Source: Epinephelus fuscoguttatus (taxonomy: Eukaryota > Chordata > Actinopteri > Perciformes > Serranidae). From it: 64,000 nucleotides of DNA. Made by a program: the position numbers and the translations under genes. The stretch lies in the NCBI RefSeq assembly GCF_011397635.1, contig NC_064759.1, positions 11,924,428-11,988,427 of the forward strand, given 5' to 3'. Within the stretch, counting starts at the first letter, position 1, and each line of letters starts with the position of its first letter. The notes beneath the pieces are model-generated. The model searched no databases. It was not told the DNA's origin and was given only the letters and a program-made list of their open reading frames with translations. Positions 25,043-31,000 of the stretch are shown one piece after another.

Positions 25043-28000
25043 ATGGCGACGGAGACGCCACCGTCTGCTGTTCACAGATACAAAGTGCCCCTAACGTTAT
25101 TGCTGTTAATATACACAGATGTTTTTTATTGCCAGCAGTTTGTCATCCCGTATAAAACTCCTTCTGACTGTAGCGCGGAGGAATTTTTCGATATCTCGAG
25201 TCTGTCGTGTGTGAGCTGCGGTTCAAACCAGCGACGGAGCACAACAGGTCGGTTACCATCACACCGCATCACAAAAACTGTTTCACCGACGACTCTGTGC
25301 GAAGAAAAAAGTGTTAATAGACGTACCTTAAATCAAATAACTCTAACTGTGAGGCGGTTAACCTCCCACGACGGAAAGAAACCACAATGAGCTGGGTAAT
25401 AGTTAGCTAGGTGCTAAAGGCTAGCTAAGATATTAAAAATCAATGAAGAGTTTAGCTAACATGACTGTTGGGAACTCTTAAAGGAGCAGTCCACTTAAAA
25501 ACAATGCGCAGTGAGCTGTGTGGATTAATATGGAATAAAGTTAGTACCTGCAAATACAGACAGCAGTTAGGTCTGGGTAATGTGGCTTATAACATTACAT
25601 ATATACTGAACAAACATGTAAACGCAACACTTTTGTTTTTGCTCCCATTTTCACGGGTTTCAGTTAAAGATCTAAGACTTTCTTTTTAATGCACGCCATA
25701 CGTAACATATTTTTTAAATGCAGATTTTTTAAATCCATGGTAGTGAGCACTTTTCCAGCCTGACTGGTGTGGCATATCAAGATGTCGACGAAACAGCATC
25801 ATGACTACACAGGTGTGCCTTGGGGTGGTCACAATAATAGGCCAAACCCGTAAATGTAGAGCTTGCTGGAGCATTTTATTACTTCTTATCCCTGTAACAT
25901 TCTTGAAATGGCTCAGGAGGAGTGGAGCTAAACATCTATTCAAAGGCAGTCAGATTATGTAGAAGTAGTTAAGTTGAAATCCTTACTTTATTTTAACAAC
26001 ATGCCATTTATTTTCCAGAACAGATTAATCTGTGATATTTAGGAGATTAGGAGTAAAATGTTTCTCTTGTTTAGACAAAAATGGTCCATTTATACATGGT
26101 TTAAAACAAAACTAAGAACTTGTTGTCTTTTTGTCTTATATGAAGTGTAATCGAAACAAAAGACAAAGAACGTGCCTTTGTGGTAGCTGCTCCAAAGCTC
26201 TGGAAGAGCCTTCCAATCTTAATCAAATGCTCCCCCTCCACTGACACTTTTAAGACAATTCTTAAAATGTACGTTTTCAATGGCCAAAAGTTGTTTGTAG
26301 TGGTTTCAATATTTTAGTATTTTATAAACTTTATAATGTATGTAATTGTTCTCACTGTTTTTATTGTGTTTTATATTTCTGTTCATTTTATATTGCTGTA
26401 TCATTGTGTGTCATTTTTTTAAATTTGTGCAGCACTTTGGTCACTGTGGTTGTTTTTAAATTTAATATACAGTACAGGCCAAAAGTTTGGACACACCTTC
26501 TCATTCAATGCGTTTTCTTTATTTTCATGACTATTTACATTGTAGATTCTCACTGAAGGCATCAAAACTATGAATGAACACATGTGGAGTTATGTACTTA
26601 ACAAAAAGGTGAAATAACTGAAAACATGTTTTATATTCTAGTTTCTTCAAAATAGCCACCCTTTGCTCTGATTACTGCTTTGCACACTCTTGGCATTCTC
26701 TCCATGAGCTTCAAGAGGTAGTCACCTGAAATGGTTTCCACTTCACAGGTGTGCCTTATCAGGGTTAATTAGTGGAATTTCTTGCTTTATCAATGGGGTT
26801 GGGACCATCAGTTGTGTTGTGCACAAGTCAGGTTAATACACAGCCGACAGCCCTATTGGACAACTGTTAAAATTCATATTATGGCAAGAACCAATCAGCT
26901 AACTAAAGAAAAACGAGTGGCCATCATTGCTTTAAGAAATGAAGGTCAGTCAGTCCGGAAAATTGCAAAAACTTTAAATGTGTCCCCAAGTGGAGTCGCA
27001 AAAACCATCAAGCGCTACAACGAAACTGGCACACATGAGGACCGACCCAGGAAAGGAAGACCAAGAGTCACCTCTGCTTCTGAGGATAAGTTCATCCGAG
27101 TCACCAGCCTCAGAAATCGCAAGTTAACAGCAGCTCAGATCAGAGACCAGATGAATGCCACACAGAGTTCTAGCAGCAGACCCATCTCTAGAACAAGTGT
27201 TAAGAGGAGACTGCGCGAATCAGGCCTTCATGGTCAAATAGCTGCTAGGAAACCACTGCTAAGGAGAGGCAACAAGCAGAAGAGATTTGTTTGGGCCACG
27301 AAACACAAGGAATGGACATTAGACCAGTGGAAATCTGTGCTTTGGTCTGATGAGTCCAAATTTGAGATCTTTGGTTCCAACCGCCGTGTCTTTGTGAGAC
27401 GCAGAAAAGGTGAACGGATGGATTCCACATGCCTGGTTCCCACTGTGAAGCATGGAGGAGGAGGTGTGATGGTGTGGGGGTGTTTTGCTGGTGACACTGT
27501 TGGGGATTTATTCAAAATTGAAGGCACACTGAACCAGCATGGCTACCACAGCATCCTGCAGCGACATGCCATCCCATCCGGTTTGCGTTTAGTTGGACGA
27601 TCATTTATTTTTCAACAGGACAATGACCCCAAACACACCTCCAGGCTGTGTAAGGGCTATTTGACCAAGAAGGAGAGTGATGGAGTGCTGCGGCAGATGA
27701 CCTGGCCTCCACAGTCACCGGACCTGAACCCAATGGAGATGGTTTGGGGTGAGCTGGACCGCAGAGTGAAGGCAAAGGGGCCAACAAGTGCTAAACACCT
27801 CTGGGAACTCCTTCAAGACTGTTGGAAAACCATTTCAGGTGACTACCTCTTGAAGCTCATGGAGAGAATGCCAAGAGTGTGCAAAGCAGTAATCAGAGCA
27901 AAGGGTGGCTATTTTGAAGAAACTAGAATATAAAACATGTTTTCAGTTATTTCACCTTTTTTTGTTAAGTACATAACTCCACATGTGTTCATTCATAGTT

Positions 28001-31000
28001 TTGATGCCTTCAGTGAGAATCTACAATGTAAATAGTCATGAAAATAAAGAAAATGCATTGAATGAGAAGGTGTGTCCAAACTTTTGGCCTGTACTGTATA
28101 TTCATTCATTTATTTTCTGTAACTGCTTATGATGTTAGGAGTCTCGGGGGGCTGGAGCCTATCCCAGCTGACTTTGGGCAACAGGCGGGGTACACCCTGG
28201 ACAGGTTGCCAGAGACATTCACACTCACACCTACAGGCAATTCAGAGTCACCAATTAACCTAACGTGCATGTCTTTGGTGGGAGTAAGCCAGAGAAAACC
28301 CACGCTGATATGAGAACATACAAACTCCCCCACCCTGGGTTCGAAGGTGACAGTGCTAACCACTGCACCACCGTGCACCACAGAAACTCAGAATGGACAA
28401 ACCCAACACTGGCTCTGGCATTTCTGTGTCGACCACTGAAGTCTGCAGCCACTCTGTGACAAGCAGATTCGGAAAAATACAGATTTTTTTTTTTTAATGT
28501 GAAACTGCTTTATTCAGTTTTTGCACTGGTTTTGTTCTGACCTCTGCGGATAATTTGTTCCCAGTCAAAACCTTTGAAATGTCTGGATCTTAAGTTACTA
28601 GAGAAAAAAGGTGAGCACACATAAGCATGTGGTGGGCAAGCTGCCCGTCTTGGTTCCTAATAAAAACCTCCTGAACAATAAACACTGAAGGATTTCTAAT
28701 CAGGAGAAGTTTCAGCTGGTTGCAACAATCTCAAATCCTCAATGTGCAATGCCACTATATCTCTCTAAATCTGAGCCTTCAATCGGTGATAAATAGTTTC
28801 CCCTAATACATTGGACTTTTTTTATGCATTTTGCCTTTGATGGACAGGACAGGTGGGTGTGGGGAGGATGGCAGCATGCAGGAGGGGGCCATAGGCTGGA
28901 TTCGAACCCAGGCCGCTGCGGCAACAGCCTTGTACATGGGGCGCCTGCTCTACCACTAAGCCACCAGTGCCCCACAGTGGACTTTTTTATGCTATTGAAG
29001 GTGTTTGTGTGTGACCAGTCAAGATTAAATAAATGAGTTTCAAGGCCCTAGTGAGGATCGAACTCACGACCCCTGGTTTACAAGACCAGTGCTCTAACCA
29101 CTGAGCTATAGAGCCTTTGTTATATATTTCACATCAAGTATGATTATTGAGACTACACCTTGAACAATCATGGGTGTGGGCCCTGACGAGATCAACCAGT
29201 TACAGGAGTGTCCTGAGCTTTGTTACGCAGCACCAGCTGATTGAAGGTGGACACTGTTCAATGATGAGATCTAAATATAGATATCTTCAAACCATTTTCC
29301 TTTACCATCTTGAAGGAAACTACAGTGAGACAAGGGCGTTCATTTCAGGGCTCTTAGTCTCAGCTGCTCCTGGACATGCTTTTTTTTTTTTTTTTCAAAA
29401 TGAAAGTCTGTGAAGTAAACACCTACATCCTCAGAGGGAATAAACCTTGAGCTGATTGCCTCAGACAGTATAGAGATGTTGGAAAGCACTGGGAGATGGA
29501 CTAATGTGATGTAGTCACAGGTCTTTTCATGGGATTTGTTCTATATAAATAAACTTGATTTGATATATATGTGCTCAGTTGTGTTCAGGAACATTACCAT
29601 TAGCTTTAGAGACTGGACAGTCTAACACCACCCCAGAGGACAGAATTTGTTTGTGTAATTTAAGTGAAGTTGAGAATGAGGTTCACTTCCTGTCTACTGT
29701 CCCGTACATGAGCACATAGGGATGTACTTTTTTAATAAAATGACCTGTTTATGTTGATTTCTTTTGGTTGGACGATCATGAAAGATTTTAGTTTTGTTTC
29801 AGAAGGGGAGCTTTTTTGTAACTGAATTTCTTTGCCGGACCTGGAATAGAAGGCAGAGTATTTTGTTTGAGGGCTGAGCAGTAAGATAACATCCATAAGG
29901 GTTGGGCACATCTTTGTGTGCATGATACAAAATACAGAAATCATCATCATTGTCAGTAGCTAGAAGACTCATAAATATTGGTAACTGCCCTCCTATGTTT
30001 AAAAAAAAAAAAAAAAGTTAATTTAATAGTTTCTGTTTTAACAAATTATTATTGCGTATTTGGTCAATGAAACTGCATGTTGCAGAGTCTATTTGTGTTA
30101 CATCTCTGCACTTCACTTCACTTCACTTGCGATAAGAGCAACTCGTCTTCCTCGCTCAAGCCACAAAATAAAATGTACAGTATAATAGTGCTGCCATGAT
30201 ACTAGAATTTCTAACTTTCAATACTGTACTTTGAAAAATATCGACATCACAACACATTCAATACTGCAAGGAAAAAAATCACATTAAGGATATAAGATTT
30301 TTAGTAAAAGATAAATATAACAAGGCCATAACATGACAATGACGACTTATTTTTGCTTGGTTAGTAGCAGAGAACAGCAGGATGACTGTAGTAAACAGTA
30401 ACAATAGCAGAGTGCGACAAAGTGCAGCTGGTACCGGTGTATCAATTCTGTGGAAAATAAGTTTTCATACTGTATTGGTGTGTGTTGATAAATTGATATT
30501 TTTATTAAGTTTAAGTTTATTCACTTTATTAATCCCCCTGAGGGGAAATTCAATGTTTTCACTCTTGCTTGTCAATTACACACAGGTCCGAAAGACACAC
30601 ACATGCACAAACAGGACCTATACATGCACAAAGTGGAGAGATCTCAGAGTGAGGTGGCTGCCCTTTGGTCGGGCGCCCCGAGCGGTTGGGGGGTTTGGTG
30701 CCTTGCTTAAGGGCACCTCGGCAGTGCCCAGGAGGTGAACTGGCACCTCTCCAGCCACCAGTCCATGCTCCATATTTTGGTCCGGACGGGGACTCGAACA
30801 GGCGACCCTCCGGTTCCCAACCCAAGTCCCTATGGGCTGAGCTACTGCCGCCCCTTTATACTACAGTATAAAGACTATAAAGTAATAATTTAGAAAGAGC
30901 AAGGAAGATTTCCTCAGGACTTAAAATAAACTGACCTGCAGGCTTCCAACAAGAGCAAAATTCAGATCAAAAACAATGACGATGCCTCTTTGGTAAGTCT

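Follow-up and report, generated by a model that had tools for sequence, protein, structure and literature searches.

The stretch analysed here (the window) comprises 64,000 nucleotides of Epinephelus fuscoguttatus (contig NC_064759.1, positions 11,924,428 to 11,988,427, forward strand). At positions 26470..28096 it carries an element that we classify, by its sequence, as an intact Tc1/mariner DD38E transposon of the known Intruder (IT) type. Its right terminal inverted repeat (TIR, or arm) contains the 3' end of the transposase gene, and its left arm carries the same coding segment in antisense. In the reading that we favour (probability about 0.75), a probably autonomous DD38E element underwent a recent burst to about 4,000 copies, and the overlap of arm and gene arose before that burst, when one element end was copied onto the other, from right to left. 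The features of the element are as follows:

26468..26469 (no strand): TA target-site duplication, left, read from the sequence
26470..26737 (+): left terminal inverted repeat, 268 bp, from the arm alignment
26518..26523 (-): mirror AATAAA inside the left arm, pointing outward
26631..26737 (-): antisense copy of the last 107 transposase bases, inside the left arm
26738..26880 (+): putative 5' untranslated region between left arm and start codon, from the sequence
26881..27933 (+): transposase open reading frame (ORF), ATG start, 350 amino acids (aa), DD38E, with HTH_29, HTH_Tnp_Tc3_2 and DDE_3 domains
27827..27933 (+): part of the gene within the right arm, 107 bases
27827..28096 (-): right terminal inverted repeat, 270 bp, from the arm alignment
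28043..28048 (+): AATAAA inside the right arm, candidate polyadenylation signal
28097..28098 (no strand): TA target-site duplication, right, read from the sequence

An intact Tc1-like element had been proposed at this place from the letters of the window alone (the sequence-only reading), and both end positions proved exact, with a TA on each side and an element length of 1,627 bp. The arms had been described as almost identical and about 270 bp long: the near-identity held, with 267 of 268 aligned bases identical and one 2-base length difference in an A-run, and the lengths came to 268 bp (left) and 270 bp (right). These figures exclude six matching flanking bases, outside the element, that the alignment as run also took in. 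When 26470-26739 was compared with the reverse complement of 27827-28096 without gaps, the check proposed along with the element, only 176 of 270 positions agreed, because the 2-base indel in the A-run shifts the arms; the gapped alignment gave 267/268. The sequence-only reading had staked itself on two points: the arm alignment did reach 27827, and the genomic copies described below were not all old and divergent.

The 107 bases by which the right arm enters the gene comprise 34 sense codons and the stop codon, preceded by the last two bases of codon 316; the sequence-only reading had the 107 bases right and counted 35 codons where there are 34. Its further claim that the left arm bears this segment in antisense was borne out at 26631..26737, and the left arm thus encodes the same 34 C-terminal residues on its other strand. 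The AATAAA at 28043..28048 is the only AATAAA or ATTAAA on the + strand of 26301-28400, and 69 of the 73 rows in the alignment of element copies (one row being a duplicate) retain it.

All three domains of the transposase (HTH_29, HTH_Tnp_Tc3_2 and DDE_3) scored above the Pfam cut-off. D157, D247 and E286 make up the catalytic triad, and 38 residues separate D247 from E286. The only relative by sequence in the PDB at E <= 0.001 was the Sleeping Beauty transposase (5cr4, E 2e-55), and the alignment with it extends to residue 342 (341 if the initial Met is not counted), inside the arm overlap. Searches for relatives elsewhere gave no match in a phage collection, no match in a collection of viral contigs and, in bacterial genomes, only six loci in one Kibdelosporangium genome, matching 46 residues.

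Family assignment was based on the following features. The TA duplication, the N-terminal helix-turn-helix (HTH) DNA-binding domains and the DDE_3 catalytic domain are those of Tc1/mariner elements, and the catalytic spacing of 38 differs from the 34 of DD34E Tc1 and Sleeping Beauty transposases. The Intruder family, as described by Gao and colleagues in the relevant parts of their paper (PMC7731502), has elements of 1.5-1.7 kb, ORFs of 341-379 aa and TIRs of either <100 or 100-272 bp; its amplification was recent (<5 My in most lineages), its hosts include ray-finned fish, and one member was mobile in HeLa cells. The present element falls within these ranges (1,627 bp, 350 aa, arms of 268/270 bp), has 38 residues between the second D and the E, and its translation holds the GRPR motif named in that paper (as KGRPRVT). 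It thus resembles Intruder in its triad, its length, the size of its single ORF, its long TIRs and its recent amplification, and departs from the typical member given there, whose arms measure 210 bp. The placement was made by spacing, motif and size ranges.

Copies were counted genome-wide by their inner arm junctions (31 bases, up to 2 mismatches): the left junction occurred 4,235 times and the right 4,142 times, and reversed-pattern controls for both gave no match. A DNA search of the genome, in which 40 of 1,698 first-look candidates were scored, listed at least 41 places with a complete or almost complete element; their identity was 98-100%, and the match at 100% was the copy in the window. 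Two sets of copies were used below. The closest copies, taken from that search, were 41 distinct elements after removal of a duplicate row (L024, which lies inside L037). The second set was drawn from the first 40 of 100 listed exact left-junction sites, all on contig C1; these 40 places represent 39 elements (L095 and L096 being one), and a filter for full length retained 31 of the places, with L061, L068, L074, L078, L082, L087, L090, L095 and L096 left out of full-length counts. Together the two sets contain 72 distinct full-length copies, or 73 rows with the duplicate. Because the closest copies were selected by score, the C1 sample gives the less biased picture, although its requirement for an exact left junction tilts it slightly towards young copies.

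The 31 full-length C1 copies diverged from their consensus by 0.57% on average (range 0.25-0.86%), and their pairwise divergence (1.03%) was close to twice the divergence to consensus (1.14%). Over the 73 rows, 263 variants were singletons, 48 occurred in two rows and 32 in more (80 shared). This excess of singletons, with the near-equality of the two divergence measures, indicates a star-like burst; at commonly used fish substitution rates, the family would be roughly one to a few million years old, or younger. The full 350-aa frame was kept in 8 of the 31 C1 copies and in 32 of the 41 distinct closest copies. Within the C1 sample, codon 285, next to the catalytic glutamate, encoded I in 20, M in 6 and V in 5 of 31 copies (M in the window copy), and E286 itself was replaced in 4 of 31. 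From its open frame and complete triad, the window copy is probably autonomous. The sequence-only reading had taken the open frame, DDE triad and similar TIRs as signs of recent or current activity and had called for a genome search for copies: more than 4,000 junctions per arm at low divergence, the kept frames and the element-free paralogous site described below support recent activity.

A possible sister family, marked by the variant end CAGTACAGACC, was considered and rejected: this end had 26 exact sites, and since at least one of them (C1:26098730) belongs to a copy of the Intruder family described here, the differences were taken as point variants. Two of the copies, L037 (C1:48347000-48351500) and L024, lie in opposite orientation 76 bp apart and have rare variants in common, as expected from local hopping.

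Insertion sites were examined at both ends of the copies. TA was present on both sides at all 30 closest-copy loci and in 30 of the 31 full-length C1 copies, L067 being without TA on one side. The joined flanks of the window copy matched an element-free paralogous repeat on contig C2 (84% over query bases 12-173 of 175), and this match spans the insertion site, being good on the right and fair over the last ~50 bases on the left. The C2 site lies within a variable ATTC run and an exact duplication is therefore not readable there; the duplication is shown by the TA flanks of the other copies. The right flank of the window copy (28099-28400) is itself a dispersed repeat: another copy of it (67%) lies at 39428-39713 of the window, and apart from the window and the C2 site at least 38 further matches were listed for the genome.

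The two arms were compared within each of the 72 distinct copies (255 paired columns, 18,335 cells, A-run excluded). Changes confined to one arm numbered 111 (53 left only, 58 right only), and those found as the same base in both arms of the same element numbered two (L015 column 67 and L077 column 80), where 0.17 were expected by chance (P about 0.013). Given 111 one-arm and 2 both-arm changes, the arms mostly drift apart after insertion. Nineteen one-arm variants (11 left, 8 right) were common to two or more copies; some of them, for example at the CpG of columns 42-43, may be recurrent, and the remainder argue against a regular homogenisation of the arms during transposition. The sequence-only reading had held that the C-terminal protein sequence is tied to TIR evolution: such coupling is possible in principle, and on the time scale of the burst it is weak. 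The base that gives T348S was found in the right arm of two copies and at the matching left-arm site of three other copies, a pattern that fits either rare exchange between arms or recurrent mutation. Together with the two both-arm private changes, it hints that the left arm could serve as a spare antisense copy of the 3' end of the gene and rewrite C-terminal transposase variants; that it often does so is unlikely.

How arms may come to enter a gene was suggested by one derivative on contig C1 (L095/L096, C1:17590634-17592747). This is a fold-back element of 2,114 bp with TA on both sides, made up of consensus positions 1-1548, about five extra bases and the reverse complement of positions 1-564. 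Alignment of its arms, about 564 bp each, gave 555 identical and 8 mismatched positions and two gaps of one base. By this make-up, a copy of the left end, extending past the arm boundary into the start of the gene, has taken the place of the right end, and the derivative shows the kind of process by which arms grow into the gene. Extension of TIRs by recruitment of neighbouring internal sequence is described for Galileo in the relevant parts of PMC3573991. In this respect the derivative resembles Galileo/Foldback elements; Galileo differs in belonging to the P superfamily and in that its longest-armed copies are non-autonomous, lacking a transposase ORF, whereas the canonical element here retains an open gene that reaches into the arm.

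For the canonical element, we propose the following sequence of events. As in the family at large, the transposase would bind the element ends, cut, and reinsert the element at TA, and the mRNA would probably end at the polyadenylation signal of the right arm. Earlier than the burst, the left end would have been remade from the right one, taking in the 107 coding 3' bases. This direction is suggested by the Sleeping Beauty alignment: since overlapped residues, up to 342, line up with the C-terminal part of that protein, the coding use looks ancestral and the left copy derived. With end-copying placed before the burst, the left arm would carry the antisense segment as a passenger, and the arms would be near-identical mainly through the youth of the copy, copying from arm to arm having been rare since then.

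Several observations weigh against this proposal. Only one arm-extension derivative was seen among the 39 elements, it is non-canonical, and its copying ran from left to right, opposite to the direction proposed for the canonical overlap. Shorter ancestral arms are presumed in this proposal. As to copying between arms, 111 changes are one-armed, and the two changes present in both arms could be due to chance or inheritance. The overlap might instead be an old, inherited Intruder trait with nothing special in this genome, the arms being identical only through youth. This is a real though lesser possibility: published Intruders reach TIR lengths of 272 bp and have ORFs of 341-379 aa, and one-arm changes dominate among the present copies. 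The published figures, in the relevant parts of PMC7731502, are silent on whether arm and gene overlap, and a step that formed or homogenised the long near-identical arms must still have preceded the burst. An assembly artefact or a chance inverted repeat is practically out of the question and was already refuted by the copy counts, each arm junction being present more than 4,000 times; in addition, the longest exact stretch common to both arms is 135 bases, and the maximum in shuffled pairs was 13 (n=300).

We consider it quite unlikely that the overlap is functional, with an inner transposase-binding site or control by an RNA hairpin, and with selection keeping the arms long and coupling protein to TIR. 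Differences outside CpG were fewer in the coding part of the right arm than in the rest of the gene, both over the 73 rows (10/7,811 versus 235/65,878, p 0.0004) and in the C1 sample (3/3,317 versus 137/27,926, p 0.0003). However, the contrast was not significant in the closest copies alone (7/4,494 versus 98/37,952, p 0.26), it is inflated by the one common variant at codon 285, and another 107-bp window of the gene was nearly as low (13/7,732). The antisense copy in the left arm, moreover, did not differ significantly from the coding part in the right (19/7,806 versus 10/7,811, p 0.10). The lower divergence of this segment was accordingly rejected as a sign of constraint: much of it reflects CpG content, then the one common variant, and what is left is only suggestive. 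A hairpin is favoured by the predicted fold of the full-element RNA, in which 268 of 268 left-arm bases pair with the right arm, but an mRNA with its 5' end at 26738 or further downstream would hold a single arm and hence form no hairpin with the left arm. An arm-to-arm hairpin, as modelled, would need a read-through transcript and is independent of the overlap with the gene. Read-through hairpin RNA and RNA interference (RNAi) are an established idea for Tc1 of C. elegans, where the relevant parts of a review (PMC3878927) describe Tc1 silencing in these terms without a gene/TIR overlap; the hairpin put forward by the sequence-only reading is of this kind.

Arms of the Sleeping Beauty type (IR/DR) hold an inner and an outer direct repeat each, and the Sleeping Beauty target is likewise TA. 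When an inner copy of the outer repeat was looked for within the arm, the best match was not significant (p 0.21 direct, 0.76 inverted; 2000 shuffles), which speaks against an inner transposase-binding site; an IR/DR structure was rejected on the direct-repeat value. The element is otherwise like Sleeping Beauty and ZB in that long arms (201 bp in ZB) flank a single transposase gene, and unlike them in its DD38E triad, both of those being DD34E (relevant parts of PMC7913693).

No description of a gene/TIR overlap in Tc1/mariner elements was found in the open-access literature searched, which is no proof that it is unpublished. The relevant parts of the Intruder paper (PMC7731502) make no mention of arms entering the gene, those of PMC4188875, PMC3169594, PMC4683633 and PMC7913693 describe no such overlap, and the fungal ORFs of PMC3441728 are stated, in the part concerned, not to overlap with the TIRs. 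A text search of papers for the letters of the TIR sequence gave 0 matches. The general picture of how Tc1/mariner elements move is unchanged by these findings. A young burst of about 4,000 copies, a good share of them with open frames, is suited to watching TIRs lengthen, exchange sequence and enter genes, and L095/L096 is one arm-extension derivative caught in a Tc1/mariner element.

A second, broken Tc1-like element occupies 61653-63510 of the window. Its reading frame starts at 62061 and holds an in-frame stop, its transposase is 33% identical to that of the first element, and the inner part of its arms (~270 bp) is 90% identical. The left arm of this element ends 13 bases before its gene, and neither arm enters the gene. 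An arm remnant at 25597-25844 is 69% identical to the arm of this second element. Host coding stretches were found at 18826-20562 (-), for an RRM protein (RRM_1), and at 8142-8564 (-), for an Ipi1_N protein. Finally, a 15-base tandem repeat at 15314-15448 lies in a long ORF and codes for a repeated YPGGD-like motif.

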